Shown piece after piece: positions 17,620 to 34,341 of a stretch of 51,626 nucleotides of DNA (the stretch's first letter is position 1; each line of letters starts with the position of its first letter). The translations under genes and the position numbers were made by a program. The notes beneath the pieces are model-generated. The model worked only from the letters and a program-made list of their open reading frames with translations. It did not search any database and had not been told where the DNA came from. This DNA comes from a virus: positions 1 to 51,626 of the IMG/VR virus record IMGVR_UViG_3300013131_000060. One strand, given 5' to 3'.

Positions 17620-18039
17620 ATGATACAAGGATACGACAACTGGAAGCTTGATTGCCCCAGAGAACTGGATTGGGAGCTTGAACCCGTCCAGGAAGCTGTT
17701 GGCATGGAGCACGGTATTTTTGCTTGGCAGGTTTTTTGCCAAACTCAAAGACAGAACATGGTTTCTGGCTGGGCCTGGGAGACCTGCAAGAAAGGGCCAT
17801 TCACCACGCTTGGTAGCAAGTTGCTGTTTTGGCTTAGGTTAGCTGAAGCTAAACTCAAGAACTTAGATTTGCCCATTCAAGCTGCCAGCTTGAAATGCGT
17901 AGATAACATCGACCAAGACTATCTTGATGCTTGCACTGAGATAGAAAACACTTGGTTTGATCCGTTTTTCTATTCGAGCACTAGACCAGTGCAAGAGTCA
18001 GACTTTGCAATTAACTTCTACATATACGAAGCGACTTAA
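17620..18039 (+). CDS. Hypothetical protein, 139 aa
   Basis: An acidic, Trp-rich soluble protein with no recognised motif. It stands two bases from the dNMP kinase gene and is likely in the same transcript. Confidence 0.6.
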   Translation: MIQGYDNWKLDCPRELDWELEPVQEAVGMEHGIFAWQVFCQTQRQNMVSGWAWETCKKGPFTTLGSKLLFWLRLAEAKLKNLDLPIQAASLKCVDNIDQDYLDACTEIENTWFDPFFYSSTRPVQESDFAINFYIYEAT

Positions 18040-18988: not shown

Positions 18989-19210
18989 AGCTTAAAGATT
19001 GCATATTCACTATCGCGCAACATTGCGAGGTACGATTAAAAGTTGTGGGATTGGGCGGGAACTTTGCTGGCAAGCGGCTCGCCTACTTTACTGTTACAGT
19101 CAGCTAACTTATCAGAGCTGTTCGCTTGCATATCTGGGGCTGGCATGGTATTGTGGATCTGTCGGGGAGCTTACAGGCAAACCGGCTGTCAACCCTACAC
19201 TTTACAGGCT
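18989..19210 (+). promoter_or_regulatory. Repeated promoter module A
   Basis: In order: TTCACTATCGCGCAA (19006), a G+C-rich hairpin stretch, GTTACAG (19093) with AGCTAAC, TTGCAT (-35, 19126), a 17-base spacer ending TGG, and TATTGT (-10, 19149). At the predicted transcript start a hairpin opens: GTCGG (19161-19165) with CCGGC (19182-19186), loop containing CTTACAG. GTTACAG begins exactly 33 bases before the -35, as in modules B to E. It should drive 19211-22471. Confidence 0.75.
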
Positions 19211-19600
19211 ATGCCAGCTACAGTTTGCGACACTTCGCCAGCAGTGCAAAAGTTGCTCAAGCAACTTCCGAGCTTGCGCCAAGAGCTTTATGGGTTACTT
19301 GTTGCTATTAAAAAGAATGAAGACTGGCCTGCCTTGCGTCAAGACTTCTATGACTTTGATCCGAGCGATCCTGTTCCTTACGTTTACGTGACTATTGGCT
19401 GCACCTTCGACTTTGACGAAAGCTGCATTACCTGGAGCTTCCAAACTGGAGACAACAGCTTCACTGGTGGAGCTTACGGGCATCCCGAATGGTTTACGAC
19501 TTCGCTGTTTAGCCGCAGCAACTGCAAGGATATTGCCAAAGATCTCATAAACGAGATTGAAGGTCGTATCTATGAGCTTCAATCCTACCAAGCAGTCTGA
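19211..19600 (+). CDS. Hypothetical protein, 129 aa, first gene of accessory operon A
   Basis: An acidic protein with YVYVTIGCTFDFDES and WSFQTGDNSFTGGAYGHPEW, suggesting a beta-rich centre. The ATG is preceded by CTACACTTTACAGGCT rather than a ribosome site. No family recognised. Confidence 0.6.
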   Translation: MPATVCDTSPAVQKLLKQLPSLRQELYGLLVAIKKNEDWPALRQDFYDFDPSDPVPYVYVTIGCTFDFDESCITWSFQTGDNSFTGGAYGHPEWFTTSLFSRSNCKDIAKDLINEIEGRIYELQSYQAV

Positions 19601-19603
19601 ACT

Positions 19604-20035
19604 ATGAATCCATCACTTCAACAGCTTGCAGAAACTTTGCTCTGGTCCTCATCTGATATTGATGCACCAGATGATGACACTTCGCTTGATGAGTATTCAG
19701 TTCACGACATTGACACTGAATCATTGAGCAAACTGCACCAGAACTTCCAGGCTTTTGTCGATAAAGCCGAGGCTGAGATCACCAAGGTCAAAGGCTCTGA
19801 TTGGGTTTTCATTGATGACTTCTATACAGGCTCTGCTTCTGGTGGCTTTTACCTTGAGCATGACTACATCCTGACTGTGAATGGTCATGGTTGCGGCTTC
19901 TGGGAAGAGTTTGACTGGGAGCCTGAAGTTGGCAGAATCCTCACTGAACTTGCACATCAAGAGAAGGAGATTCATTGCTTCACCAACCATGTAGATCATG
20001 GTCGAAATGGCAAAGTTTACCTTGAGTTTGGCTAA
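19604..20035 (+). CDS. Phage protein with NGHGxGFW motif
   Basis: The centre reads FYLEHDYILTVNGHGCGFWE, the hallmark of a widespread phage family usually written HDFWLTRNGHGAGFWD, followed by GKVYLEF at the end. The N-terminal 45 residues are acidic. The family has no known function to my knowledge. Confidence 0.65.
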   Translation: MNPSLQQLAETLLWSSSDIDAPDDDTSLDEYSVHDIDTESLSKLHQNFQAFVDKAEAEITKVKGSDWVFIDDFYTGSASGGFYLEHDYILTVNGHGCGFWEEFDWEPEVGRILTELAHQEKEIHCFTNHVDHGRNGKVYLEFG

Positions 20036-20054
20036 TTTTACACGCTGAGGTATT

Positions 20055-20519
20055 ATGTCTTACACTGCATTTTCGGCTACAGCTACTTGCAAAATTGAAG
20101 GCTTTAAGTCTGCTGAGGAGCTTGCATTATCTATTTACGACTACCTAGTGAATCATCCCGATGAGACACCAGAAAGCTTGGATGATGATAACATGGATTC
20201 AGATGATGTGGTAAATGCTATCAGTAGCTACCTTAAGATCAATTGCATTTTCGGCTACAGCTACTTGGGGTCAAAGCTTACTATTAGCTATGACACAGAG
20301 AATAGCGACAACTATGCAAGTGATGTTTTCGACTTTCTGACATCGCATCTTGCAATGCTGCAATCGTCATACTTTATGACAGTTAACTGGAACTGCCTAG
20401 ATAGTCGTACTGGCTCCAGCGGTGGCACCCAGTATCTTGACAGAAAAGGTGACATCATTGACATTGATGTCATACTTACTACTCACTTTGAGCGCATAAA
20501 CTTTATTGAGGCTGAATGA
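20055..20519 (+). CDS. Hypothetical acidic protein, 154 aa
   Basis: A strongly acidic, Ser/Thr-rich protein. The DNA TTGCATTTTCGGCTACAGCTACTTG occurs twice inside the gene, near 20067 and 20243, apart from a few bases, so part of it may be a duplication. It overlaps the next gene by ATGA. Confidence 0.6.
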   Translation: MSYTAFSATATCKIEGFKSAEELALSIYDYLVNHPDETPESLDDDNMDSDDVVNAISSYLKINCIFGYSYLGSKLTISYDTENSDNYASDVFDFLTSHLAMLQSSYFMTVNWNCLDSRTGSSGGTQYLDRKGDIIDIDVILTTHFERINFIEAE

Positions 20520-20734
20520 TGATTTCCGATACAATGTATGCCAAAGCCAAAAAGCTTTTAGACGAAGATTGCTGGGCTGAGTACAGACGGGCTAATCCAA
20601 AACCATTAAATCCGACATCGGGCAAGCCTAAACCTTGGACAACGCCACAGCGATGCTTAGATCTTATTGCTGCACTTAATAAAGGCGACGCAGAACAAGT
20701 TGCAGCCATTATGATGTATCAATTTTACTATTAA
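20516..20734 (+). CDS. Hypothetical protein, 72 aa
   Basis: Starts in an ATGATG overlap with the preceding stop. Contains a Pro-rich middle (NPKPLNPTSGKPKPW) between two helices. No family recognised. Confidence 0.55.
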   Translation: MMISDTMYAKAKKLLDEDCWAEYRRANPKPLNPTSGKPKPWTTPQRCLDLIAALNKGDAEQVAAIMMYQFYY

Positions 20735-20750
20735 ATAACAACAACGTGCT

Positions 20751-20951
20751 ATGTTTCACTCGTTACTTCAATTCACCACTCCGCAGATGATGGATCAACT
20801 CGAAATGTTGTCTGCTCGTGAGCAACTCATGGAAGACATCGACTGTATTGTTGATGAATACTTCCAAGAGTATGGCATCACACACGACCCTGAACTTGTC
20901 AAGGTATTGTGTGATGCTATCTGCAAACTCTTTCCCACCCAATCTAAATGA
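20751..20951 (+). CDS. Small acidic helical protein, 66 aa
   Basis: Three predicted helices, acidic. It is preceded by TAAATAACAACAACGTGCT, and the next gene by the similar TTAAATAACAACA, a repeated A-rich leader within this operon. Confidence 0.5.
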   Translation: MFHSLLQFTTPQMMDQLEMLSAREQLMEDIDCIVDEYFQEYGITHDPELVKVLCDAICKLFPTQSK

Positions 20952-20975
20952 CTGACCTTTGCTTAAATAACAACA

Positions 20976-21137
20976 ATGACTAAACGTTGGCAGCTTACCT
21001 GGTTGTATCGAGATGACAAAAACAACATCCAGCATGGAAAGCTTGAAGCCGATGACTATAGCTGGCTACATGAGCAAGCCATGAGGCTAAAATCTGAAGG
21101 CTGCTTAAACATCCTTGCATCTCTAGCTAGAAAATGA
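20976..21137 (+). CDS. Small protein, 53 aa
   Basis: ATG follows AAATAACAACA. The protein opens TKRWQLTWLYRDDKNNIQHG and ends with a helix. The form (two strands and a helix) is common in phage accessory regions. The stop overlaps the next ATG. Confidence 0.55.
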   Translation: MTKRWQLTWLYRDDKNNIQHGKLEADDYSWLHEQAMRLKSEGCLNILASLARK

Positions 21138-21400
21138 ACCGTCCTATTGGCTACCTGCAACAGCACATGCTTGATTTTTGCAAGCGTTATCCTGGACTAC
21201 ACTATATTGCTTCTGACGCTGAAACGGTAAAGGTTGCTCGCTCTCTTGAGAAGCGCGGCTTGCTGCACATCACAGATTGCGGAATGGCCGATGCTCGTGG
21301 CAGATCGGTGCTGATGGTCTCCTACGTTGAACCAGGGACGTTGCCAGACCCTGCCAGCAGCTCTAAGGAGACACATCCTACCCTGCTGGCGAGGGACTAA
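21134..21400 (+). CDS. Small winged-helix-like protein, 88 aa
   Basis: YLQQHMLDFCKRYPGLHYI..VARSLEKRGLLHITD fits a winged helix: a recognition helix followed by a GLLxI wing. It could be a DNA-binding regulator; the evidence is weak. Confidence 0.5.
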   Translation: MNRPIGYLQQHMLDFCKRYPGLHYIASDAETVKVARSLEKRGLLHITDCGMADARGRSVLMVSYVEPGTLPDPASSSKETHPTLLARD

Positions 21401-21455
21401 CAACTTTCGACATCAAAGCCGCCTTGCTGGCGATTTCTGCCTTATAGCTTGAGAC

Positions 21456-21938
21456 ATGGGAAAACCAAGGAATCCATATCGGTTTACAAGAAAAGAGACA
21501 ATCGAAAGATTGCAGTCTACAAAGAGCTACCTTGGAAACAAGGAGCGCCTTGCGTTTATGCAGGCTGAGAGTATCTATGTTCCAGCAGGTTACAAGCCGA
21601 ATGATGATGAAAGCTTTTATGCAGCACCAAGACTTACACAGTTTGACGTTCAATGTTTAGTAGACAGTACCGAAGCTTATTGCAACTACAACTGGAGAAC
21701 AGATCGCAAATTCAATGCACTTAATGCGATTGAGTTTACAGAACTGAAGTTCCGCAAGGGAGCTTCCATTGGAGAGTCTGTAGTTATTGTCTTTTATCCA
21801 TGGAAGGATGAAGACAAGGTTTCAAAAGTTGCTACTTTGTGGCTTGGTACTTGGCACCATACTCCGCTTGTTGCTTGGAGTGATGGTTCCAATATTAGGA
21901 CTGAATTTCTTCCCGAGTACATCGACCTTGTTCATTGA
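21456..21938 (+). CDS. Hypothetical protein, 160 aa
   Basis: A basic N-terminal 30 residues (RFTRKETIERLQSTKSYLG) lead to a beta-rich remainder with many Trp and Tyr. No family recognised. Its TGA overlaps the next ATG by one base. Confidence 0.55.
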   Translation: MGKPRNPYRFTRKETIERLQSTKSYLGNKERLAFMQAESIYVPAGYKPNDDESFYAAPRLTQFDVQCLVDSTEAYCNYNWRTDRKFNALNAIEFTELKFRKGASIGESVVIVFYPWKDEDKVSKVATLWLGTWHHTPLVAWSDGSNIRTEFLPEYIDLVH

Positions 21939-22471
21939 TGCAAAATTTACTACTTGAAGTTAAAAGTGTTCGCCGTTGCGAAGGCGGGCATACTTGCAAT
22001 CTTAGTGCCAATGGCCGCAAGGTTGCGTTTATTGCACCTGGGATCTTTGAGTGGACAAATTATTCAAAGAAGGTAGATGTTCTTACTTGGTTCGCTAGCA
22101 GGAACAAGACAAAAATTAAAGAGATTCAGCCAGTTGAGCTGAAGCAAGGGTGGGAATCAAAGATTCCAGATTACAAGATGGACGATGCAAGATATGAGAT
22201 TACTGAAACAGCTTTGCATGAATGGATTCAGTTACACTTTGTAGCTTATGAGATTACACAAAGATGTAAGACTACCTTAATGACGTTAGGCAGCAAAGGA
22301 GAGATTCTTGATTGGGGGATTGCACCTGGAAGTAAAGCTGACGCCTTGAAGCGTGTTGCTGCTAGCAGCCTTAGCTCTAAGTTATTGAATGGACTTTCCA
22401 CCTGTGAGCTTGTTAAGATCATGGAAGAGAAGCTGGAAGTCAAAAGGTTGCAAGCTCCTGTTGTGGAGTGA
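21938..22471 (+). CDS. Hypothetical protein, 177 aa, last gene of operon A
   Basis: Beta-rich first half, helical second half (SKADALKRVAASSLSSKLL). No motif recognised. Followed by promoter module B. Confidence 0.55.
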   Translation: MQNLLLEVKSVRRCEGGHTCNLSANGRKVAFIAPGIFEWTNYSKKVDVLTWFASRNKTKIKEIQPVELKQGWESKIPDYKMDDARYEITETALHEWIQLHFVAYEITQRCKTTLMTLGSKGEILDWGIAPGSKADALKRVAASSLSSKLLNGLSTCELVKIMEEKLEVKRLQAPVVE

Positions 22472-22638
22472 GTTTGCACCCAGCCCCCGCCAAACCTTAC
22501 AAAAGCCCCCAAAAATTACCGTTACAGTCTGCTAACTTTGCAGAACTTTCGACTTGCTAAAAGCAGGCTGCCATGGTATAATAGGTGCGCTGGGGAAGTT
22601 ACAGCCTCAGCTTGTCCTAACTTTACAGGTTACAGACT
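22472..22638 (+). promoter_or_regulatory. Repeated promoter module B
   Basis: GTTACAGTCTGCTAAC (22521), then TTGCTA (-35, 22554), a 17-base spacer ending CCATGG and TATAAT (-10, 22577). A hairpin GCTGGGG/CCTCAGC (22589-22595 and 22605-22611) starts at the predicted +1 with AAGTTACAG as loop. The CACTATC element of the other copies is missing. Drives 22639-25289. Confidence 0.78.
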
Positions 22639-22962
22639 ATGAAGTTTCAGGTTGACGACATCGAGCTTGACTTTGAGATGGAGCACGCATTACAGGCTAT
22701 GGAAACCGGAATCTGCGTCAAGGTCACTCAGAAGCTTGATGGCAATGGCAATCGAGTTTGCACCGCAGTTCACAAACGTGACAGCCAGACAGCTTGGAGA
22801 TTGCGACTCCAAACCAAAGATCCAATGGAGGCACTTACGGCTTGGATTGAGAGATTTACCGGCAAAGCATCCGGTGGCTTTATTGCTGACTTCAAGGTTG
22901 CAGCCCGTGGGGCAGACCATGAAGGCTACTACTACGTTCTTGTCGTTACTGATTACAACTGA
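22639..22962 (+). CDS. Hypothetical protein, 107 aa
   Basis: The ATG follows CTTTACAGGTTACAGACT. A beta-rich protein with a basic middle. The stop overlaps the next ATG. No family recognised. Confidence 0.55.
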   Translation: MKFQVDDIELDFEMEHALQAMETGICVKVTQKLDGNGNRVCTAVHKRDSQTAWRLRLQTKDPMEALTAWIERFTGKASGGFIADFKVAARGADHEGYYYVLVVTDYN

Positions 22963-23225
22963 TGACTTTCCTAGAGTTTATTGATTCAGCCAAAAAACTG
23001 ACACCTTCTGAGTTTTATGCCAGCAAGATTGCAGTTGATAATGGAATTGATTCAAGCTGGTGGCCAGAGTTTAGTCCTTCTTCTTTCCTTGTTCTTGCTG
23101 AACATGCTTGGATTGCGGTGTTTCCTGGTAAAGCTTATACGTTGATTGAAAGGGAAGAGCATACTGGAAGAATCTCTGAGCTTACACGAATACTTTACAA
23201 GTGGTTTAGCGAGGACTCGCAATGA
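22962..23225 (+). CDS. Hypothetical protein, 87 aa
   Basis: Helical ends around a Trp/Ser-rich centre (SSWWPEFSPSSFLV). Coupled to both neighbours by overlaps. Confidence 0.55.
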   Translation: MTFLEFIDSAKKLTPSEFYASKIAVDNGIDSSWWPEFSPSSFLVLAEHAWIAVFPGKAYTLIEREEHTGRISELTRILYKWFSEDSQ

Positions 23226-23389
23226 CATTCCAGAAAGCCAAGACTTTGTTTGCCGAACGCTTCAGGTTTGATCTTAAAGACAGGCCCGAAGCCGCTGAAG
23301 CATGGTGCATCTTCATTGATATCTTGCACTGTGAAGGCAAGATTACAGATCAACAAGTTCAGTCTTGGGACAATCCATTTTACTCCTGA
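23222..23389 (+). CDS. Small protein, 55 aa
   Basis: ATGA overlap with the gene before it. The pattern EAWCIFIDILHCEGKITDQQ followed by WDNPF is a common short phage motif (AEAWxxYxDxLxxxGxITxxQxxxWxNPF). Function unknown. Confidence 0.55.
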   Translation: MTFQKAKTLFAERFRFDLKDRPEAAEAWCIFIDILHCEGKITDQQVQSWDNPFYS

Positions 23390-23394
23390 AACAC

Positions 23395-23982
23395 ATGTCT
23401 GAAACATTTGAGATTGATGATTACACCATCAAGATTGAGCAAGACGACAGCTATTTTAATCCAAGAACTGATTACGACAATGTTGGCAAGATGGTTTGCT
23501 GGCACAGACGTTACGACCTTGGAGATGAGCAGCCCACATGCTCCCTCAGCGAGTATCTACATAAAATGATGTGGGAACGAGAATACAAGTTGCATCGTAA
23601 GTGGGTTCCTGACGACATCAAAGAAAAGGACTTACAGGCTTACATTGACAAGCACTTTGTTGTTCTGCCACTTTACCTGTATGACCATAGTGGCTTGTCA
23701 ATAAGCACTGGACCTTTTGGTTGCCCATGGGACAGTGGCCAAGTTGGATTTATTTACGTTGAAAGCGAAAGCAAGGAGTATGGCGATCTTGAGGCTGGAC
23801 TGAAAGGAGAGGTTGAAGTCTACGATCAATACTTGCGTGGTGATGTTTGGGGCTACATCATTGAAGCTCCAGATGGTGAAATCATTGATTCTTGCTGGGG
23901 ATTTTATGGGTTTAACAACTGCAAGTCAGAGGCAGAGCACATTGTTTCTGGCTATCCCAAACAGCTTGCACTTTGCACTTAG
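23395..23982 (+). CDS. Conserved phage protein, DHSGLSIST...CPWDSGQVG family
   Basis: Marks of a widespread phage family are clear: DNVGKMVCWHRRYDLGD (residues 30-46), LPLYLYDHSGLSISTGPF, CPWDSGQVGFIYV, then YDQYLRGDVWGYII and SCWGFYG. I know the family from many phages and mobile elements but no proven role. The 195 residues look full length. Confidence 0.75.
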   Translation: MSETFEIDDYTIKIEQDDSYFNPRTDYDNVGKMVCWHRRYDLGDEQPTCSLSEYLHKMMWEREYKLHRKWVPDDIKEKDLQAYIDKHFVVLPLYLYDHSGLSISTGPFGCPWDSGQVGFIYVESESKEYGDLEAGLKGEVEVYDQYLRGDVWGYIIEAPDGEIIDSCWGFYGFNNCKSEAEHIVSGYPKQLALCT

Positions 23983-24023
23983 GCTTGCAAAGTTTAATTT
24001 CTAACACTTCGCTCAACACAAAC

Positions 24024-24230
24024 ATGGCACGCTACACCCATTACTTTAACGTTTGCATCTCAAACTCTTTTGAGAGTGACATTGAAGACTTTGACGATGC
24101 TTTTGATGAGTTTATTGATGGCTTTGAGGACATTGACGCTAAAAGGAGGGAGCTTTTGCATACAGACGAGTCTACAACTTCTCTGATGAAAGGCATCATT
24201 TACAGCCAGACTGACGATCATCAGCCATGA
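24024..24230 (+). CDS. Small acidic protein, 68 aa
   Basis: A run of Asp, Glu and Phe (ESDIEDFDDAFDEFIDGFED) gives a strongly negative helix, possibly a DNA mimic (speculative). ATGA overlap with the next gene. Confidence 0.5.
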   Translation: MARYTHYFNVCISNSFESDIEDFDDAFDEFIDGFEDIDAKRRELLHTDESTTSLMKGIIYSQTDDHQP

Positions 24231-24511
24231 ACTTCAACTCTATTGAATACACTGTGCCAGCTCACTGGCTATCGGCAATCATCAACGGTGATGAAACATC
24301 GTTTGATTACTACGATGATCCGAAAGATTACAGAGCCTACAAAGGTTTCTGTGAATACGAGGTTAAAGATGCAACCGTGGAGGTTGTCAGTGAAGAGCCT
24401 TACTTTGATTCTTTCCACGATGCGAGAGGCTACGGCGTGCTTCCTTGTAACGTTGTAGATTGCATCTTTCATTACCCAGTAACCACCCAGGCTGAACTTT
24501 TTGCAGACTGA
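24227..24511 (+). CDS. Phage accessory protein, HWxSAIINGD family
   Basis: YTVPAHWLSAIINGDETSFD at the start and EEPYFDSFHDARGYGVLPCN later match a known small phage protein type with the hallmark HWASALINGD. The function is not known to me. Confidence 0.65.
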   Translation: MNFNSIEYTVPAHWLSAIINGDETSFDYYDDPKDYRAYKGFCEYEVKDATVEVVSEEPYFDSFHDARGYGVLPCNVVDCIFHYPVTTQAELFAD

Positions 24512-24514
24512 ACC

Positions 24515-25033
24515 ATGAAAACAAAACAGCCAAGCTACTGGTGCATTGAAAACATTGGAGACGTTGATCCAATGGAGGACGGAGGCGGCTTCGTCCTAGT
24601 TGACAGGACTGGAGTTTACGATCCTGAGCTTCTGATCTTGGACGTTGATGACAACTACAAGTACGAGCTAACTTCTATCGAGCTGGAGCCACTTATCAGA
24701 ATCAAGGCTGAAGATGGCTTCCACGGCCTGTCAGATAACAAGTTTCATCCAGAGCTGCCAGCGTGGTTCGGTGATGTCAAGAACTTACAGGCTATTGCCG
24801 ACTATTCGGGCAGGCCATACTATGCCCTGCTGGACAGCTTTCTTTCAGGTTGCCCCGTAGAGCGTGCACTTGCATACATGGATGCTGTAAGGTATTTTGG
24901 AGCCGAGAATTTCAATAGTGAGCCTAGGGAGCTTACACACAAAAAGGCAAAGACTCTGTGTGATACAATGCTTGCTCAAATCAAAAAATCAAAAGCTTGG
25001 CATCAATGGTATGGAATCAACTACAATGAATGA
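24515..25033 (+). CDS. Hypothetical protein, 172 aa
   Basis: Residues 85-135 contain PAWFGDVKNLQAIADYSGRP and a helical ALLDSFLSG segment, faintly like small anti-restriction proteins; I do not claim this. Its end overlaps the next start by 8 bases. Confidence 0.55.
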   Translation: MKTKQPSYWCIENIGDVDPMEDGGGFVLVDRTGVYDPELLILDVDDNYKYELTSIELEPLIRIKAEDGFHGLSDNKFHPELPAWFGDVKNLQAIADYSGRPYYALLDSFLSGCPVERALAYMDAVRYFGAENFNSEPRELTHKKAKTLCDTMLAQIKKSKAWHQWYGINYNE

Positions 25034-25289
25034 ACCTAAGAGCTTTCAGTGGCTACGTTCTATCCACAAGGCTACAGCTTATGACAAGAGGACTCAGCTT
25101 ACATTTTCTATTATCCACAATGTAGATTCCAGTTCAATCGAGGATAAGTTTACCTACCGCTGCGCAGACAGTAATCGTAGATTGATTTTTGATCGCAAGA
25201 TAAACTTTGCACTTGCAATTGTAATTGTTAACTCTTGGGAGGGAGAAATCAAAGTTGAAGAAAAAATTAGCAGAAAAGTTACAGGTTAA
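25026..25289 (+). CDS. Hypothetical protein, 87 aa, last gene of operon B
   Basis: A basic, beta-rich protein. Its last codons (AAAGTTACAGGTTAA) already consist of the heptamer word found in the following non-coding module. Confidence 0.5.
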   Translation: MNEPKSFQWLRSIHKATAYDKRTQLTFSIIHNVDSSSIEDKFTYRCADSNRRLIFDRKINFALAIVIVNSWEGEIKVEEKISRKVTG

Positions 25290-25510
25290 AGGTTGTAAGT
25301 TCACTATCGCATTTTGATTAGTCTGCCAGCTTGCGGGTGCCTTCGGCAACCTTGCAGGCAAAACCGGGGGCAACCTTACTGTTACAGCGTGCTAACCTTG
25401 CAGGACCTTGGGCTTGACTTCTGCAAGATTCTGTGGTATTATGGATCAGGTCGGGGAAGTTATAGGCTGAGCCCCGGCCAAGTTCACACCTTACACCTCA
25501 CGCCTTACAC
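25290..25510 (+). promoter_or_regulatory. Repeated promoter module C
   Basis: TTCACTATCGC (25304), a G+C-rich hairpin stretch, GTTACAG (25381) with GTGCTAAC, TTGACT (-35, 25414), a 17-base spacer ending TGTGG and TATTAT (-10, 25437). GGTCGGGG (25449) pairs with CCCCGGCC (25472) over 8 pairs, starting at the predicted +1, with AAGTTATAGGCTGAG as loop. Drives 25511-28759. Confidence 0.82.
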
Positions 25511-25813
25511 ATGAACAGCATCTACTCTCATGCTTGCAGGTTGGTCAGCAACTTTGACTTTGTTAAAGTTCAGAAGATGATGGCAGCAGTTGATTGGAAG
25601 TGGGGTGGACCCTACATGAATGGAGAGTTTGGACTTCCAACGATTGATGCTATGGAAGCAAACGCCATGAGCCTGATCCTTGAAGCTCACAGGCTGGACA
25701 CCAATACTTCGGCCGGTGGCTTTGAGGCTTACTGGATCCGACAAGGACAAGTTGCAGGTTACACGGGCAATGGCTATATCGGACTTCGGTTCATCGGAGC
25801 CCAGTATTACTGA
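25511..25813 (+). CDS. Conserved small phage protein, 100 aa
   Basis: The pattern FDFVKVQKMMAAVDWKW, PTIDAMEANAMSLI and TSAGGFEAYW matches a phage family seen as MxALDWxW...PTxEELxxxA...STGGFxA. Function unknown. The ATG follows CTCACGCCTTACAC. Confidence 0.65.
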   Translation: MNSIYSHACRLVSNFDFVKVQKMMAAVDWKWGGPYMNGEFGLPTIDAMEANAMSLILEAHRLDTNTSAGGFEAYWIRQGQVAGYTGNGYIGLRFIGAQYY

Positions 25814-25848
25814 GTTTCAACTTTCAACCATCCACTCGCTACTTCGCT

Positions 25849-26046
25849 GTGACTACTTACAAGACAGTTCTTTTCCGCTTCAATGGCAACAACCGTACAC
25901 TTAAGCGCGGTTTAACCTTGGAAGAAGCGCAGACAATTTGCAAACATTCTGATTCCAGTTCAAGTACTTGCACCAATAGGGCGAGACTTGACAGGTACGG
26001 ACGCGACAACAGCAATCCGTGGTTTATTGGTTACACGGAGGAGTGA
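25849..26046 (+). CDS. Phage protein, TLEEAQxIC...SSxTC type
   Basis: GTG start. LKRGLTLEEAQTICKHSDSS followed by STCTNRARL and WFIGYTEE matches a short family frequent in phage genomes. Function unknown. The stop overlaps the next ATG. Confidence 0.62.
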   Translation: MTTYKTVLFRFNGNNRTLKRGLTLEEAQTICKHSDSSSSTCTNRARLDRYGRDNSNPWFIGYTEE

Positions 26047-26237
26047 TGGCTTACACCTTAACCCCTGACGAGCTTGAAGCCAAGTGGGGCAGCCGTGAAG
26101 ATGGCCACCCAATCTTTACACGTTTAGTCCACAGGGCTTGCTTGCTTAATGGTCGAACTTTAGAGACTGATTACTGGAAGTGGGTTTCTGATAGGTCTGG
26201 CTATACAGTCTGGACACCGGAAACTGGCTGGACTTGA
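26046..26237 (+). CDS. Small protein, 63 aa, YWxWV type
   Basis: FTRLVHRACLLNGRTLETDY then WKWVSDR fits a short phage family often found beside the TLEEAQ family. Function unknown. Confidence 0.58.
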   Translation: MAYTLTPDELEAKWGSREDGHPIFTRLVHRACLLNGRTLETDYWKWVSDRSGYTVWTPETGWT

Positions 26238-26248
26238 TCACACCTTGC

Positions 26249-26274
26249 AAGTTTGACAGAGTACCGGAAACTGT
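26249..26274 (+). repeat. 26-bp direct repeat, copy 1
   Basis: AAGTTTGACAGAGTACCGGA then AACTGT, identical to 26942-26967. It lies 25 bases before the gene at 26299. Part of an inverted form (ACAG...CTGT). Confidence 0.8.
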
Positions 26275-26298
26275 TGCGCAAATCCTACACTTTCTGCC

Positions 26299-26931
26299 AT
26301 GAGCGACTTGGTTTACTACAAAGAGCTTCCAAATTACTTTGAGCCACCTGAACCCGCTAGGGCAGTAAAGCCACAGGCTAAACCATTGTGCCAAGGACTT
26401 GCAACTGCGCCAGTTCCAGTTGAACCTTTGATGGCCTGTACTAAATGCAAAGGTGCAGGGCATACACTGAGCGATGGCTTTAGTTACACGTTGGAGGATG
26501 GAACTCGCAGGCATGTGCCAACAAAGTGGAAAACTTGCAGCTTTTGCGATGGAGCTGGATGGTTCCATGCTCCAGACCTTGCACCATTGGTGAAGGCGGT
26601 TACAGGACGCAAGCCCCGCACCTTGCGTTCCAAGAGGCCAGACGACACACGTTCCTACTATGTGTGGCGACTTGCAAGGTTCCACGGTGGCAAGGATGTT
26701 TGCTTGCCTATGGGTGCAGAGATGGACATTGCAGGCGATCCCTACAGGGATGTACTTGATGAGCTTGCAAGGTTGATTGCCAAGACTTACTTTGGCAGCG
26801 GCAACTTTGGAGCTGCAAGGTGGCAGCAGGCAATGTATGGAAGCCACAGCTTCGATGATCTGCCGCCACACCTTGACGGTCCAGTTTATGACAGCGACAA
26901 GCCACTAGAAGAAATGCTGGAGACTGTGTGA
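26299..26931 (+). CDS. Zinc-finger phage protein, DnaJ-like CxxCxGxG repeats
   Basis: CTKCKGAGH and CSFCDGAGW form a DnaJ-type zinc knuckle pair (residues 47-95). The second half, SYYVWRLARFHGGKDVCLPM, then MDIAGDPYRDVLDELARLIAK and FGAARWQQAMYG, matches a conserved phage family often annotated as chaperone-like. It may aid protein folding or bind nucleic acid; the role is unproven. Strong heptamer content in the third quarter. Confidence 0.7.
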   Translation: MSDLVYYKELPNYFEPPEPARAVKPQAKPLCQGLATAPVPVEPLMACTKCKGAGHTLSDGFSYTLEDGTRRHVPTKWKTCSFCDGAGWFHAPDLAPLVKAVTGRKPRTLRSKRPDDTRSYYVWRLARFHGGKDVCLPMGAEMDIAGDPYRDVLDELARLIAKTYFGSGNFGAARWQQAMYGSHSFDDLPPHLDGPVYDSDKPLEEMLETV

Positions 26932-26941
26932 TCCAGTAGGG

Positions 26942-26970
26942 AAGTTTGACAGAGTACCGGAAACTGTCAA
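26942..26970 (+). repeat. 26-bp direct repeat, copy 2, with TTGACAG/CTGTCAA arms
   Basis: This copy is followed by CAA, so TTGACAG and CTGTCAA form 7-bp arms around AGTACCGGAAA. It could be an operator or a hairpin in the leader of the gene at 27004. Confidence 0.8.
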
Positions 26971-27003
26971 CCATCCACCTTACACTTTGCTTGCTTACTT
27001 GCT

Positions 27004-27201
27004 ATGTACTACGCCAAATGCTGCTACCCAGGAACCTTAGAGGTTTTTGCCACCAACTATCCAGATGCTATCAAAGAAGCACAAGATCTTGCTGATACTT
27101 ACAGGTGCAAGACACAGGTTATTCCTGCTGGCCAAGATGATCCAATTTACGAGACAACACCTCGCAGCTCAATCTTTGATTTGTGGGAGGATGAAGAATG
27201 A
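27004..27201 (+). CDS. Small protein, 65 aa
   Basis: YYAKCCYPGTLEVFATNYPD then AIKEAQDLADTY has the beta-helix form of small phage proteins. Acidic end. ATGA overlap with the next gene. Confidence 0.55.
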   Translation: MYYAKCCYPGTLEVFATNYPDAIKEAQDLADTYRCKTQVIPAGQDDPIYETTPRSSIFDLWEDEE

Positions 27202-27374
27202 AGCACCAAACTTGGAAGCCTGCCACCAAGGTTGATCTTGTCAGTTTGGAGGATCGACTTCCTGCTGACAAGAAGGTTGTTACAACCTGGTTTCCAGGCC
27301 GTGGGGCTTGCTACATGATTGTTGATTGCAGCAAGCCACACTTTAAGACCAGCAGACCAAAAGTTATTTACTGA
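27198..27374 (+). CDS. Small protein, 58 aa
   Basis: Coupled to its neighbours. Basic, with a WFPGRGACYMIVDCSKP segment. No family recognised. Confidence 0.5.
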   Translation: MKHQTWKPATKVDLVSLEDRLPADKKVVTTWFPGRGACYMIVDCSKPHFKTSRPKVIY

Positions 27375-27375
27375 G

Positions 27376-28002
27376 ATGTACGACCTTATAATTTTAGATG
27401 ACGAAGGTAACTGGAAGGTTATCGAGTCTGCCCTAACCTACGAAGATGCGGACTACAAGCTAGATGTTTACACCGACCAGTTTCCACACGCAATCGCTGA
27501 CATTATCCCCACTGCAACTGACACGGCACTCACAATGACACAGCTTACAACCTGTATTTTCGACCCCAAGCCTTCAGCTTACAGCACTGGTATTTACAGT
27601 TTCATGGTTCCAGGCCCAACCCCAGACGTTCTGGTCTGCCAGTTCGGAGGCGAGACGTTGGGGGAGCTGAAGGCACAGGGCAAAGTTTCACCAGAGGCGT
27701 TCCTGTGCCCCTGGGAGGAGGCTTCAGCTCACAGCCGAGACCTTGCACGCGAAAGGTTGTGCAAAGGCCCTCAGAGGATCACAGAGCAACGTTGGTGGGA
27801 GCTACTTGAGGTGTTGTTCCCTGCACGCTGGGAGCAACAGGTTGGAGGCAACAAGGACCATGAAGTGTTCATGATGCCTGAATGTATCACCAGCACACTT
27901 TACACGTTTGGAGTTCGGATTGGTGAGGAATACTTCACCATCAACGAAGACTACGACATCCCGGCTTCCAGGCTGATTGAAGCTTGCATGAAGGTTCAAT
28001 GA
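27376..28002 (+). CDS. Phage protein with DUF1419-like C-terminal part
   Basis: Residues 150-205, ITEQRWWELLEVLFPARWEQ, HEVFMMPECITSTLY and RIGEEYFTINED, resemble the DUF1419-type pattern RxxWWEMLEVLPPxxW...GxYxTFxD known from phages and plasmids. The N-terminal part is unrelated to anything I know. Function unknown. Confidence 0.62.
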   Translation: MYDLIILDDEGNWKVIESALTYEDADYKLDVYTDQFPHAIADIIPTATDTALTMTQLTTCIFDPKPSAYSTGIYSFMVPGPTPDVLVCQFGGETLGELKAQGKVSPEAFLCPWEEASAHSRDLARERLCKGPQRITEQRWWELLEVLFPARWEQQVGGNKDHEVFMMPECITSTLYTFGVRIGEEYFTINEDYDIPASRLIEACMKVQ

Positions 28003-28280
28003 TGGAGGCTGCAACTGCCAGGGATTATCTGCGTAATCTTGCACGTTCCACCGATGACTTTACAACTAAGTGGGTCATTGATGGAATCTTCTGGGCTGAT
28101 GAATCTTGCAGGATCGGCGGAACCTTAAGTCTTGCACTTAGGGACGCTGATGCTGAAGGTGGCAGATTGCTACTTCAGCACTTGCTGGATTCAGGTGTGA
28201 CTACACAGGCTGAAGTTCCCAGGTTCTTGAACACATACTATCATACCTGCTTAAAGTTTCTCAGACCAATCAAAGACTGA
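27999..28280 (+). CDS. Helical protein, 93 aa
   Basis: Starts within the preceding stop. An amphipathic helical protein with a GGRLLLQHLLDSG segment. No motif recognised. A hairpin follows its stop. Confidence 0.55.
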   Translation: MMEAATARDYLRNLARSTDDFTTKWVIDGIFWADESCRIGGTLSLALRDADAEGGRLLLQHLLDSGVTTQAEVPRFLNTYYHTCLKFLRPIKD

Positions 28281-28292
28281 TTCTTGCACTTT

Positions 28293-28315
28293 GCCATCCT
28301 CCAGGATGGCTTTCT
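28293..28315 (+). terminator. Hairpin GCCATCC-TCCA-GGATGGC
   Basis: A perfect 7-bp stem with a 4-base loop is followed by TTTCT. A weak terminator or attenuator inside operon C. Confidence 0.5.
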
Positions 28316-28354
28316 GCAGGATTCATTCCCTGCTTCGATCCTGCATCTTTAATC

Positions 28355-28759
28355 ATGACACTTGATTTTGAAAACTTTACAGTTGTCAGCACTGATGGTA
28401 GTTCATGCGACATTGATACTGCTTATCTTGTAAATTCCGGTCTTGTTGTTGGCACGACACATGCTGAACGCAGCCAGCTTGCGGTTGACAAGGGCGTGAA
28501 ACTACTTGACATTCTGCAAGATGATGAACCACCGTTCGTCAGCAAGCATGTAATGTACGAGATTGAAGCCTGGACTTACGATGATGACAGGCCAGAGTTT
28601 CAATATTTGGTTCCGATGCACTCCGGCAACTTCTGGATGGTTGATTGTTGGATCGTAGACGAAGAAGGTAACGTGCATCCAGATTACAACGTTGCTGGTG
28701 TGCCAGTTGCAACTGGGAACTTTGTTGCTGTTAGCGATAGTCCACGAATTATGGATTGA
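28355..28759 (+). CDS. Hypothetical acidic protein, 134 aa, last gene of operon C
   Basis: A beta-rich acidic protein with DCWIVDEEGNVHPDYNVAGV near the end. No family recognised. Confidence 0.55.
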   Translation: MTLDFENFTVVSTDGSSCDIDTAYLVNSGLVVGTTHAERSQLAVDKGVKLLDILQDDEPPFVSKHVMYEIEAWTYDDDRPEFQYLVPMHSGNFWMVDCWIVDEEGNVHPDYNVAGVPVATGNFVAVSDSPRIMD

Positions 28760-29018
28760 AGGTTAAACGTTACAGTTTCACTATCCCGCAACTTTACACG
28801 TTATGAGACTGAAACTAAAAGGCTGGGTGTTGGGGCGGGCCTGAGTTTACAGGCAAGCCGTCCCCAACCTTGCAAGAAGCCCTAAAAGTTGATATGACAG
28901 TTTGCTAACTTTACAGGCAATCGGGCTTGACTTATTAGTAGTTTCGTGGTATCATAGGTCAGCAGGGGAGTTTACAGCTTGCCCTGCTTTACACCTTACA
29001 CTTTGCAGTTTACACGCT
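28760..29018 (+). promoter_or_regulatory. Repeated promoter module D
   Basis: TTCACTATCCCGCAAC (28777), a GTTGGGG...CCCCAAC stem upstream, ATGACAG (28894) with TTTGCTAAC, TTGACT (-35, 28927), a 17-base spacer ending CGTGG and TATCAT (-10, 28950). AGCAGGG (28961) and CCCTGCT (28982) make a hairpin at the predicted +1 with a TTTACAG loop. The ATG follows CTTACACTTTGCAGTTTACACGCT. Drives 29019-31283. Confidence 0.82.
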
Positions 29019-29426
29019 ATGGCTACGCTTGCTGACATTGTTGCAGATTGCACCCCAGAGCTTGAGTGGAAAGACTCAAGCCGGTGGGCTACACCCCACC
29101 CAAACGATTTTTACACTTCGGAGATTAAAGGTTATCACAGCGCAGAGCTTACCGAATACCTGAGCTTCCACGTTAGTGGGATGCAGCTCATACTCTGCAA
29201 AAAGACGTGCCACTTCGATGGCACAGTTGAGACACTCTACTACAACATGGGGGAGTTTACAGAACCCATTGTCAGCTGTCTGTCACAGCTTAAAGATACT
29301 GCTGAGAGAATCAAGGAGTATGCAGCCTACGTGGTTGAAAGTTACAGGAAGCATTGTGACTTTCGGAGTTGCCCGAGCTTTGAGCTTATTGATGACGTAG
29401 ACGAGAACTTCAATCCTATTTACTGA
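29019..29426 (+). CDS. Hypothetical protein, 135 aa, first gene of operon D
   Basis: An acidic protein with a beta-rich centre (LSFHVSGMQLILCKKTCHFD) and a helical end. No family recognised. Confidence 0.58.
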   Translation: MATLADIVADCTPELEWKDSSRWATPHPNDFYTSEIKGYHSAELTEYLSFHVSGMQLILCKKTCHFDGTVETLYYNMGEFTEPIVSCLSQLKDTAERIKEYAAYVVESYRKHCDFRSCPSFELIDDVDENFNPIY

Positions 29427-29457
29427 GCTTCAACTGTAAACCCTGCATTTTACGGCC

Positions 29458-29841
29458 ATGACGACCACAGCTACAAGGTTCAAGCCTGTCACTCTGGACA
29501 CTCCAGAGTATGCCATCAAGATGACGCGCAACACCTTCAAAGAAATCTTTGGAGGTGAGCCCAGAGACATTGGAGTTGAAACTAAGCACCTTGGCTGGCA
29601 CCCTAGTTGGTACAACTTACAGCTTCCGTGCATTAAGCGCCACTGGGAAGACAAAGGTTACGGCAGCAATGTTGTTGCCGTTACTTTCTACGGCAAACGC
29701 AGTCTGTATAGGTTGCAAGAGGAAGGTTACTGGCTTGCTGGTAGGTGCAAGGTTCAAGGCAAGGAAGTGAATGGTTACACGTCCGACATTATGGTAGACG
29801 TTGAAGGTAGTCTTTACACGGTTGTAGTTATCTCCATCTGA
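29458..29841 (+). CDS. Hypothetical protein, 127 aa
   Basis: The N-terminus (TLDTPEYAIKMTRNTFKEIF) is helical; the rest is beta-rich with GYWLAGRCKVQGKEVNGYTS. No family recognised. Preceded by TGCATTTTACGGCC. Confidence 0.55.
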   Translation: MTTTATRFKPVTLDTPEYAIKMTRNTFKEIFGGEPRDIGVETKHLGWHPSWYNLQLPCIKRHWEDKGYGSNVVAVTFYGKRSLYRLQEEGYWLAGRCKVQGKEVNGYTSDIMVDVEGSLYTVVVISI

Positions 29842-29862
29842 GCACGCACTTCAGTCTGTATC

Positions 29863-30045
29863 ATGAATCTTCCAGTTTTGACTACAGTGTTTGAAGTTTT
29901 CTACGCTGCAGCTTACCCCACATATCCTGGGGAACAAAGGTCACAGCTTTTCTCCACCAAGGATGAAGCTGACAGGATGCAAGCTTTCTATGAAAGCTGT
30001 GGTTCCAAATCTTACATCAAAGAACGCACCTTAAACCGGCTATGA
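29863..30045 (+). CDS. Small protein, 60 aa
   Basis: Form strand-strand-helix: VFEVFYAAAYPT, then LFSTKDEADRMQAFYESCG. Coupled by an ATGA overlap to the next gene. Confidence 0.52.
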   Translation: MNLPVLTTVFEVFYAAAYPTYPGEQRSQLFSTKDEADRMQAFYESCGSKSYIKERTLNRL

Positions 30046-30218
30046 AAAAACTTTACGGCTTTCTTCAAGTTCGTATCATTGTTGAGGTAGATGATACGTT
30101 TACAGACACTGACATTGCATCAACCTCTTTCATTGAAGACTATGAGTTTGTTGCTGTAGACGGAGCTTCTTTCGTCGATACTGAAATTGTAGACTTTGAC
30201 ATTACAGATTCAAAGTGA
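30042..30218 (+). CDS. Small acidic protein, 58 aa
   Basis: MKKLYGFLQVRIIVEVDDTF followed by a very acidic stretch. A single beta hairpin and helix likely. The form is similar to a family of short phage proteins with a xVxVxVxxxxF strand. Confidence 0.52.
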   Translation: MKKLYGFLQVRIIVEVDDTFTDTDIASTSFIEDYEFVAVDGASFVDTEIVDFDITDSK

Positions 30219-30430
30219 TGACCGAACTTCCCACCATCAGGCAAAAGCTTCCAAGCTTCCAGCGTGTTGCTTTTCATGGTCAGGCTGTGACCGTAGAACG
30301 TACACCTGACAGTCCTACAGGTTTCTGCGTTACAGGTTGGGAGCAGGGGCTGCCAGTTGCAAGGCGGCCCATTACAGGTTCCGCCCTGCTGGATCTTCTT
30401 ACACGTTACCCCCATACGCTTCATGTTTGA
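30218..30430 (+). CDS. Small protein, 70 aa, dense in heptamer words
   Basis: Its DNA carries CCTACAG, GTTACAG, ATTACAG and CTTACAC within about 100 bases. The protein is beta-rich (QRVAFHGQAVTVERTPDSPT). GTG at 30215 is an alternative start. Confidence 0.52.
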   Translation: MTELPTIRQKLPSFQRVAFHGQAVTVERTPDSPTGFCVTGWEQGLPVARRPITGSALLDLLTRYPHTLHV

Positions 30431-30680
30431 TCCCTACAAGACTGGCTCTCCAGCATGGAGAGTAGTTTCAACTTTTACAATGCTGAAGGTTATCGCCATC
30501 GGCAAGATGATGAAGTTGATGGCTGCTATTTTCCAGGCTATTGATGCGGAGCCTGGAGAGAATATGTTGAAGGATAGTGTTGCAGCTATCTTTTGCTGGT
30601 CAGAGGATCAGTTTGTACTTTGCAAGCTTAAACTTATTAAGCTTGGTTTTATTCAACTCATTGAGGACACTGAATCATGA
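30423..30680 (+). CDS. Small protein, 85 aa
   Basis: Basic helical protein overlapping both neighbours. Contains MLKVIAIGKMMKLMAAIFQA, amphipathic rather than a clear membrane segment. Confidence 0.5.
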   Translation: MFDPYKTGSPAWRVVSTFTMLKVIAIGKMMKLMAAIFQAIDAEPGENMLKDSVAAIFCWSEDQFVLCKLKLIKLGFIQLIEDTES

Positions 30681-31090
30681 AACAAGAGATCAAAGCTAAG
30701 TGGTTGCAGGCTCTACGGAGTGGAGAGTACAGGCAAGGACGCTACACTTTGCGAACCTCCAACAATAGCTTTTGCTGTTTGGGGGTTCTTTGTGATCTTT
30801 ACAACAAAGAGGATAGAGGCTTTTGGAAGTGGGAGTATTGCAATAATGGAGCTTATAGTTTAGTTGATAAAAATGGGAATTACTTTGAAGAGACCCAGCT
30901 TCCGTGGTCTGTGATGGAGTGGGCAGGATTAAATGAACATAATCCGAGTGTGAATGTTGCGAGAAGCGATGATTCAGCTTCTAGCTTGTACGATAAAGAG
31001 GGATGTTTTGAAGCTACAACGTTGATAGTGCTGAATGATGCAGGAGAGACTTTTAACCGTATTGCTGACATTATTGAAGATCAACTTTAA
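30677..31090 (+). CDS. Conserved phage protein, FCCLGVLCDLY family
   Basis: IKAKWLQALRSGEYRQGRYT, NNSFCCLGVLCDLYNK, PWSVMEWAGL and TLIVLNDAGETFNRIADIIE match a very common phage family with constant motifs KxxWxxALRSGxYxQ and CCLGVLC. No function is known to me. The 137 residues look complete. Confidence 0.75.
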   Translation: MKQEIKAKWLQALRSGEYRQGRYTLRTSNNSFCCLGVLCDLYNKEDRGFWKWEYCNNGAYSLVDKNGNYFEETQLPWSVMEWAGLNEHNPSVNVARSDDSASSLYDKEGCFEATTLIVLNDAGETFNRIADIIEDQL

Positions 31091-31094
31091 CACT

Positions 31095-31283
31095 ATGGCA
31101 AACGTTCTCACTGGTAATCAGATTGATGCTTACAGAGCAAAGGTTCTGTTATCTGCTTTGAAGCTAGAGATTCTGGGAATGAAGCGTAAAGGCAGAAGTG
31201 CTTATAGTATTATTAAGAGTGAGTTTAACCTTAAAGGTAATCGTCAATCAGTTTACGATCAGCTTAAGTTGATTACAGGTTAA
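31095..31283 (+). CDS. Small helix-turn-helix-like protein, 62 aa
   Basis: SAYSIIKSEFNLKGNRQSVYDQL looks like a helix-turn-helix. It is the last gene of operon D and directly precedes a strong terminator. Confidence 0.55.
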   Translation: MANVLTGNQIDAYRAKVLLSALKLEILGMKRKGRSAYSIIKSEFNLKGNRQSVYDQLKLITG

Positions 31284-31304
31284 ATCCCAAGGTTTTAATG
31301 TTTT

Positions 31305-31336
31305 AGCCGGTAGCTGAAAGGTTGCCGGCTTTTTTA
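31305..31336 (+). terminator. Rho-independent terminator of operon D
   Basis: AGCCGGTA and TGCCGGCT (one wobble pair) around a 10-base loop, then TTTTTT. Near-identical in design to the terminator at 32343. Confidence 0.85.
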
Positions 31337-31736
31337 TGTTTATATAATCTTATAGGTTATAAGTTATAGATTAAAGGTTACAGTCACTATCTCGGTGCAA
31401 GGTTACAGGTTACAGGTTGGCGTAGAACTTTCTGGTCGGCCCCCAACCTTACAAATAGGCCAAGAAGTTACTGTTACGGGTTGCAAACTTTACAGGGCCA
31501 TGGGGTTGACATATTGGGCTTTGCCGTGGTATCATGGTTGAGCTGGAGAGGTTGCAAACTTCTCCTGAGCTTACAGGTTACACCTTAAAGCTCAAAGCTT
31601 GGTAGTTGCTAAAGCTACTGACTCTACTTTGTAGAGTCGTCACTGCTCTAACCGCAAGCTTTTCGGACCTTGCAGGTTATCAGGTTCGGGGGTCGGCCTT
31701 CCGGCCCCCACTTTGCACTTTGCACTTTTAGCTATT
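31337..31736 (+). promoter_or_regulatory. Repeated promoter module E plus long leader
   Basis: GTCACTATCTCGG (31383), GGTTACAGGTTACAGGTTGG, GTTACGG (31473) with GTTGCAAAC, TTGACA (-35, 31506), an 18-base spacer ending CGTGG and TATCAT (-10, 31530). GGAGAGGTT (31545) pairs with AACTTCTCC (31557) over nine pairs. The leader further holds GACTCTAC-TTT-GTAGAGTC (near 31620) and a GGGGGTCGG/CCGGCCCCC hairpin before the ATG at 31737. This stretch has no gene. Confidence 0.8.
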
Positions 31737-31976
31737 ATGGCTATCTACTTCGCGTCCAGCAACCTAGATGTTGCAATTGGAAGTAACAAGAGCGCAGTTC
31801 GCAGGTTTGCAAAGCGTCTGCGGTTTGCGGGGTTGGATTTGCAGTTTGGATGCTGCAACCGTCAAACTTTTGCCAACCCCGAAAGTTTCAAGAGGGAGTT
31901 TGGAGTCTCCTTGATCCACGACTTGGATCAAAAGTTGATTTTCAGACCGGACTTCTCAGTAGTTCGCAGCTTCTGA
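31737..31976 (+). CDS. Small basic protein, 79 aa
   Basis: Begins MAIYFASSNLDVAIGSNKSA, then a basic helix (VRRFAKRLRF) and CCNRQTF. No family recognised. Preceded by CACTTTGCACTTTGCAC. Confidence 0.55.
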   Translation: MAIYFASSNLDVAIGSNKSAVRRFAKRLRFAGLDLQFGCCNRQTFANPESFKREFGVSLIHDLDQKLIFRPDFSVVRSF

Positions 31977-32040
31977 GCTGCACTCTGTAGTTTGCAGGAG
32001 TTCCGGAAACCTGCACTTTCCACTTTGCACTATTGACACG

Positions 32041-32316
32041 ATGCAAGCTGTTGTTCGCAGGGGGAACCCTGCATTTGCCCGCCCCCAACGTCCAAAGTTT
32101 GAACTTTGGGCCTGTTACTTTGACAGGCTGGGGCCTACAGGTGAAGAAAGATGGGGACTGATTCTAGTGACTGAAGTAAGGTCTGACCTTGTAGCCACAA
32201 TTCAGAACTTTGCAAGGCTCAAGGAGTTTGTCAGGGATCGGCATGTTGAAGAAACGGGCCGCTATCTTCCAGCCGAAAGGTTTGAGATTATTGAGACCGA
32301 GATTCGACAAGTCTAG
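32041..32316 (+). CDS. Hypothetical protein, 91 aa
   Basis: A basic protein, beta-rich centre (ERWGLILVTEVRSDLVATIQ). No family recognised. Preceded by CACTTTCCACTTTGCAC and followed by a terminator. Confidence 0.55.
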   Translation: MQAVVRRGNPAFARPQRPKFELWACYFDRLGPTGEERWGLILVTEVRSDLVATIQNFARLKEFVRDRHVEETGRYLPAERFEIIETEIRQV

Positions 32317-32342
32317 GTAAATCTTACAGCTTAAGGTCTTTT

Positions 32343-32374
32343 AGCCGGTAGTCTGCGGATTACCGGCTTTTTTT
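32343..32374 (+). terminator. Rho-independent terminator of operon E
   Basis: AGCCGGTA, ten-base loop, TACCGGCT and a seven-T run. The stem is perfect over eight pairs. Confidence 0.9.
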
Positions 32375-32448
32375 GTCTACATGACTTTACAGGTTACAGC
32401 CACCAGGTGGAAAATTCGTGGTAGGATTTTAGAACTTGAACCTCCCAG

Positions 32449-34298: not shown

Positions 34299-34341
34299 TC
34301 TTAAACCTTACGCCATTTATCCTACACGCTAAAGGCCACAC

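Follow-up and report, generated by a model that had tools for sequence, protein, structure and literature searches.

The virus record IMGVR_UViG_3300013131_000060 of IMG/VR (51,626 bp; this whole stretch is referred to as the window) carries, between about 19 and 35 kb, consecutive clusters of small accessory genes, each headed by a copy of the same promoter module. Five modules (A to E) and a degenerate sixth one (G) were located, standing 50-240 bases 5' of start codons (Table 1). The window further encodes a DnaB helicase, an SSB, a terminase, a Gp13-like capsid protein, a terminase small subunit and a group-2-type sigma factor, and for the accessory genes Pfam and PHROG searches yielded almost no function. 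The terminase is 35-38% identical to those of KBS-S-2A, S-H1 and P-HS2, the nearest, yet distant, named cyanophages, and the sigma factor shares 37% identity with that of S-CBS3. From these distant matches we infer a siphovirus-like phage of Synechococcus/Cyanobium-type cyanobacteria. Megablast against annotated phages found no similar DNA, and the phage terminase was not found in the bacterial genomes searched; the phage family is uncultured, with probable cyanobacterial hosts. A second record, 3300013132_000200 (G024), represents the same phage, its gene order and modules being identical to those of the window.

Table 1. Positions of the promoter modules and associated features in the window
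Feature	Position	Strand	Details
Phage sigma-70-type factor	3541-4461	-	closest to the factors of cyanosiphoviruses S-CBS3 and S-CBS1
CACTATC box before A	19008-19014	+	
G+C-rich hairpin before A	~19052-19086		comparable to that before operator D; from folding
Module A	19093-19186	+	operator 19093-19115; -35 TTGCAT 19126-19131; -10 TATTGT 19149-19154; hairpin 19161-19186; opens operon at ATG 19211; junction f29|f20 shared with G012, G022, G025, G026, G030
Putative module-controlled operon region	19200-34900	+	about 25-30 small genes, function mostly unknown; TTRCASS heptad periodicity
Module B	22521-22611	+	operator 22521-22543; -35 TTGCTA 22554-22559; -10 TATAAT 22577-22582; hairpin 22589-22611; opens operon at ATG 22639; without CACTATC box; junction f22|f40 shared with G012, G013, G022, G025, G029, near-equivalent in G009/G028 and G030
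Module C	25381-25479	+	operator 25381-25403; -35 TTGACT 25414-25419; -10 TATTAT 25437-25442; hairpin 25449-25479; opens operon at ATG 25511; junction after f42 (before f59 in most records) shared with G012, G013, G022, G025
Further CACTATC boxes	25302-25308, 28779-28785, 31385-31391, 33929-33935, 34822-34828	+	
G+C-rich hairpin between CACTATC and operator D	28829-28868	+	from folding
Module D	28894-28988	+	operator 28894-28916; -35 TTGACT 28927-28932; -10 TATCAT 28950-28955; hairpin 28961-28988; opens operon at ATG 29019; junction f50/f82|f71, before f71 shared with G013, G025; D-type in G012
Intrinsic-terminator-like hairpin	31305-31338	+	TTTTTT tail; ends D operon, just upstream of module E
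Module E	31473-31572	+	operator 31473-31495; -35 TTGACA 31506-31511; spacer 18; -10 TATCAT 31530-31535; hairpin 31540-31572; leader extends to ATG 31737; junction f95|f117; top match of the generic promoter scan
Intrinsic-terminator-like hairpin	32343-32376	+	T tail; ends E operon; stem nearly the same as at 31305
Terminase small subunit	32449-33183		within the putative module-controlled region
Winged-helix RepL-like protein	33377-33904		within the putative module-controlled region
Non-coding array	34150-34800	+	degenerate heptamers and CCATTCA 14-mer repeat; peak of the 7-nt periodicity
Degenerate sixth module (G)	34887-34977	+	operator-like GTTACGATTGCCACGTATCAGG 34887-34908; hairpin GCGGGG..CCCCGC 34956-34977; before f51

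Architecture of the module

In each module an asymmetric site of about 23 bp, TGTTACRGNNNGCTAACTT..MAG, spans roughly -68 to -46 and is followed by a sigma-70-type promoter, characterized by a TTG(A/C) -35 element, a spacer of 17-18 and a TATNNT -10 element preceded by TG. The transcription start was predicted (not mapped) 7 bases past the -10 element, and the span of the site was counted from there. Column conservation over 25 modules gave the consensus TTAYTGTTACRGNNNGCTAACTTNNMAGG - N8 - GCTTG(A/C) - TGGTATNATNGG with a spacer of 17, in which the alignment columns T16, A18, C19, C26, A28, A29, C30, T32 and G37 were invariant. A symmetric palindrome GTTA-N8-TAAC was considered and rejected, as the symmetry is limited to its four outer bases and does not extend to the invariant C19 and G25/C26 inside; the site is therefore called asymmetric. 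In a generic sigma-70 scan of 17.5 kb, modules E, B, C and D were the top four of 30 matches.

The first-pass annotation had placed five modules at these positions with an operator starting 33 bases before the -35 element, and the distance was exactly 33 in A to E, with the -10 boxes as described and spacers of 17, 17, 17, 17 and 18. A, B and C carry GTTACAG itself, D has the variant ATGACAG and E the variant GTTACGG. Two of its statements were corrected. The CACTATC boxes, given as 80-125 bases upstream of the -35 element, were measured at 118, 112, 148 and 121 bases (range 112-148), and the region, which had been taken to end at 31.7 kb, extends to about 35 kb with the sixth module at 34,887 and CACTATC at 33,929 and 34,822. 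The sixth module has a poor -35 and -10 and precedes the gene at 34990-35598; its equivalents in two related records, G013_9982 and G003_2182, precede the same gene family, f51. In the related records TCACTATC.CGCA occurred 16 times, 14 of them at modules, and was not found on the reversed sequence (0 matches); the CACTATC box was absent from all slot-B modules, a slot being the position of a module in the gene order. Hairpins upstream of the operator were strong before A and D, with T-rich sequence following the slot-A equivalents in G030 and G012, and none was clear before B.

Modules occupy the same gene junctions in related phages

A two-block profile was run over 30 IMG/VR records and detected 28 distinct modules in 13 related records; in this count the copy of G028 is a near-duplicate of that of G009, and G024 was omitted as the same phage. 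Module scores ranged from 25 to 72, except for a degenerate copy scoring 16; reversed sequence reached 17 at most. As the profile was built with most of the relatives' own copies, these scores are descriptive; an earlier scan from the five copies of the window alone had already found the relatives. The 33-base spacing, which the first-pass annotation had proposed to look for in related phages, is kept in them, except for one module with 34 bases (G022_27079).

Gene-family maps showed each module, the degenerate sixth included, at a fixed junction (Table 1). In the module tree slot required 6 changes, the lowest number possible, and genome required 20; few individual branches were strongly supported, as expected with 116 columns. 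Mean module identity was 0.67 within slots versus 0.58 within genomes, and the -35 element is largely fixed by slot: slot A has TTGCAT, except for TTGCGT in G022, the closer copies of B have TTGCTA, and C and D have TTGAC. Given the same gene junctions and the slot-wise tree, the modules are therefore best read as old, inherited operon promoters. The description of a repeated promoter module fronting accessory gene clusters thus holds beyond the window, since the relatives keep both the spacing and the gene junctions.

A leader hairpin at the predicted transcript start

Each module also has a feature that the first-pass annotation did not mention, a compensated hairpin where its RNA is predicted to begin, and nearly all leaders have GYCGGGGARNYTRYAGSC, or a sequence close to it, near +1. 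When the leaders of each slot were aligned without gaps, the cells of the named stem were paired to 100% in B, 97.5% in D, 92.5% in C and 92.7% in A, and pairing dropped to 13-64% once the stem was shifted by 1-3 columns. All four slots tested showed changes on both sides of the stem; one pair in D is A-U, G-C or C-G depending on the phage. The mean folding z of 27 leaders was -1.76, and with Rfam 15 no family matched in the window at the gathering threshold. A 5'-terminal stem is a known means of slowing RNase E-type decay, and by analogy the role of the leader hairpin is most likely to stabilise the mRNA.

A seven-nucleotide periodicity across the module region

More surprising than the modules was the discovery of a 7-nt periodicity that shares the boundaries of the module region. 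Sense-strand TTRCASS heptamers (such as TTACAGG and TTGCACC) are dense at about 18-35 kb, in coding and non-coding sequence alike, and sparse elsewhere in the window. Within predicted genes they occur in all three frames, 75 times versus 24 in synonymous-codon shuffles (maximum 35 in 300 shuffles), and 43 of 81 pairs are spaced by multiples of 7. For 137 regulon genes of 8 phages (the window and the same region in G009, G012, G013, G022, G025, G029 and G030), lag-7 identity exceeded that of synonymous shuffles by 2.9% (z = 22). In 249 other genes the lag-7 excess was 0.9% (z = 9.9), with lags such as 8 and 10 also raised, and a small general component therefore exists.

Non-codon lag scores above 4.5 were sought in 3-kb windows of the 30 records, the module-bearing G026 and G027 being too short or ending before the region. 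Period 7 was obtained only in the module region of module-bearing records; the other scores came from G031, with period 4, and from G016, with a single marginal period 5 adjoining the terminase small subunit gene of that record. The period-7 signal climbs towards the array between f43 and f51 (34.2-34.8 kb) and stops there. In G031 (loci L098-L100, flipped 31-46 kb), where orthologs of many of the module-region genes stand in unchanged order, there is neither a module nor a lag-7 signal (z = -1.1); its lag-4 signal (z = 8.4; TGAC/CTGA) peaks at the same place, just after f43. Orthologs share about 30% of their heptamer sites (19-40%) and about 70% turn over, with broadly similar densities; therefore, the signal seems to be maintained or regenerated and not merely inherited.

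As a tentative idea, to which we give somewhat less than even credence, the modules may be what is visible of a nucleic-acid code that extends over the whole region and for which the encoded proteins do not account, either a binding register for a phage protein assembling on these transcripts or this DNA, or a new kind of locus-bound process by which short oligonucleotide repeats are seeded into genes. The periodicity of 7 nt (elsewhere 4 nt) in protein-coding DNA, coextensive with the modules, would if confirmed be a signal for which we found no counterpart among described mechanisms.

Interpretation of the modules

The promoter module is real and conserved, and the modules probably define a regulon. 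We consider it likely that they act as early promoters for five to six operons that follow one another and contain small accessory genes, and that they share an activator-type site and a stabilising 5' hairpin. The modules would be read early by the RNA polymerase of the host carrying its main sigma factor, and one DNA-binding protein on the -68 to -46 site would aid polymerase binding, so that the operons would fire together. The slot-specific -35 hexamers (TTGCAT, TTGCTA and TTGACA/T) may set the relative strength of the promoters, the 5' hairpin would shield each mRNA from 5'-end-dependent RNase E-type decay, and the upstream hairpins and terminators might insulate each operon from the preceding one.

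Several observations weigh against this interpretation. In the profile scan no module was detectable in the relatives G031 and G016, although the gene cluster is still there in G031; therefore, the module is not essential to the cluster. The letter-shuffle control for stem pairing was clearly exceeded by slot B only, in alignments of 4-6 rows, and it is because of these few sequences that the pair-count controls are significant in slot B alone; individual A and B leaders often fold no better than their own shuffles. In addition, the preference for an activator over a repressor is deduced only from the position of the shared site, all of which is upstream of the -35 element, so that the core promoter is left untouched.

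Chance alignments in a repeat-rich region full of GTTACAG-like heptamers might be suspected, as GTTACAG is 5-fold over-represented in the window (21 occurrences versus 4 expected), lies on one strand in 20 of the 21 cases and is accompanied by related heptamers that fill the region; the heptamer alone therefore proves little. However, spacing, promoter and hairpin are conserved at orthologous junctions in diverged phages and the reversed control was almost empty, with 18 occurrences of the core GTTAC-N5-GCTAAC in roughly 1 Mb from related records, every one in a module, and a single one on reversed sequence. Chance repetition of GTTACAG was refuted by these conservation tests, and we give the chance explanation next to no weight; equal random matches, named in the first-pass annotation as a danger to its reading, were thus tested for, and the composite proved far beyond chance, though GTTACAG alone is a poor test. 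Improbable as well, if less extremely so, is a role of the modules as mobile cassettes for recombination, comparable to the promoter early stem-loops (PeSLs) of T4, in which homology for shuffling clusters would be primary and promoter activity secondary. Several similar copies do lie within one genome, the first genes after B and C vary between phages, and in G012, which lost the D cluster and module E, a single D-type module stands directly before the gene of E, as recombination between modules predicts. However, the grouping by slot and not by genome indicates that the modules were not recently copied, leaving recent mobility or gene conversion unsupported, and the deletion in G022 has no modules at its boundaries.

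One activator or repressor acting on all modules, as suggested in the first-pass annotation, is a putative reading. A host regulator, through which the regulon would track the state of the host, appears doubtful. RpaB (redox/light) activates from -66 to -45 (PMC13421787), a range that overlaps the module site at its predicted position, and the first half of the site is GTTACA-like. The sequence is nevertheless unfit: the RpaB motif HLR1, KTTACAWW-N2-KTTACAWW (PMC13421787), matched 0 of the 29 modules used for motif tests, as did the relaxed TTACA-N5-TTACA, and GCTAAC differs from KTTACA at invariant positions. The motif TTA-N7/8-TAA of LysR-type carbon regulators such as CmpR (PMC13249358) fits 19/29 modules versus 1% of random 55-nt stretches (N8 form), but this short six-base motif is weak, and TTA-N8-TAA leaves the invariant inner C, G and C of the site unexplained. 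Motifs of NtcA, CRP, LexA, CIRCE and the Pho box were each found in 0/29 modules. A phage-encoded activator or repressor from the early or replication operon is a serious candidate, although we stop short of calling it probable. A scan of 84,980 bacterial and archaeal species genomes for the whole composite of site and promoter, not for the site alone, gave no match. The phage has ribbon-helix-helix (RHH), AbrB-like, zinc-ribbon and winged-helix proteins, and the gene at 17620-18039 is present in every module-bearing record covering its locus and absent from G031 and G016. This correlation rests on two negatives, one of them being G016, whose record breaks off at the region, and the gene gave no Pfam or PHROG hit and has no recognisable DNA-binding domain. 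The binders proposed in the first-pass annotation are not favoured, as the predicted DNA-contacting strand of the RHH protein differs between phages with the same operator, and the AbrB-like (cyAbrB) and sigma genes also occur in module-less relatives. The RHH gene (5160-5330, + strand) is small and FitA/Arc-like, lies directly before the replication operon and was present, with divergent sequence, in all relatives examined.

Read as early operon promoters, the modules would provide a defined and testable regulon of 25-30 small genes with one promoter design for a lineage known only as metagenome contigs, and the position-locked site could serve as bait for fishing out the regulator.

Further features of the window

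About 1 kb of non-coding DNA (33905-34989), from the RepL-like gene to the gene starting at 34990, contains the CCATTCA 14-mer repeat, the heptamer array and two CACTATC boxes, and may serve as an origin or as a site of packaging or recombination. In G031 and G016 the corresponding gene is likewise followed by a stretch rich in CCATTCA, which contains CACTATCC. A protein with an NrdR-type zinc ribbon is encoded at 13593-14153 (+) and a YspA-related SLOG-family protein at 37689-38090 (-). In the module-region coding DNA of seven phages, the palindromic hexamers GATATC, TTCGAA, AGTACT, GCATGC, ATGCAT and ATCGAT are nearly absent compared with synonymous shuffles, which suggests restriction-site avoidance.

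Comparison with known systems

In cluster K mycobacteriophages the 13-bp motif SAS, GGGATAGGAGCCC, is located at the translation start, and a role in translation initiation was suggested (PMC3203893). Like SAS/ESAS, the modules are a repeated and oriented motif, partly with inverted repeats, that is confined to the non-structural half and stands before some genes. They differ in being whole promoters with a position-locked upstream site, and the SAS 13-mer is not in the module consensus. With the HLR1 promoters of RpaB they share the upstream activator position and the GTTACA-like first half-site (PMC13421787). The second half-site KTTACAWW, in contrast, is absent from 29/29 modules.

Regarding the leader, 5'-terminal mRNA hairpins occur in E. 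coli ompA and in phage T7 transcripts. The module hairpin resembles them in forming a stem-loop at, or a few bases from, the predicted 5' end; it differs in that GGGGARNYTRYAGSC is constant in all copies and the stem arms co-vary, and its function is a predicted one.

As a promoter cassette, the module is by analogy PeSL-like. PeSLs were reportedly described from T4-like phages by Arbiol et al. in 2010 and Comeau et al. in 2014 (see PMC4503421). They combine a host-type early promoter with a stem-loop and stand in several copies in a plastic early region, where they separate groups of small non-essential genes. The modules resemble them in their host-type promoters and in their placement; as to the stem-loop, strong hairpins precede A and D and terminator-like ones lie at 31305 and 32343, but none is clear before B. 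One junction here, that of G012, suggests the loss of a cassette at a module, which the slot-wise inheritance and the G022 deletion do not match. PeSLs are reported to be recently shuffled, whereas the copies described here are old and slot-specific, and besides an upstream hairpin the modules add an upstream site at a fixed distance and the leader hairpin at the predicted transcript start. The phage itself is not T4-like, having a Gp13-like capsid protein and cyanosiphovirus-type terminase and sigma matches, and the modules would thus show PeSL-like logic outside the T4-like phages.

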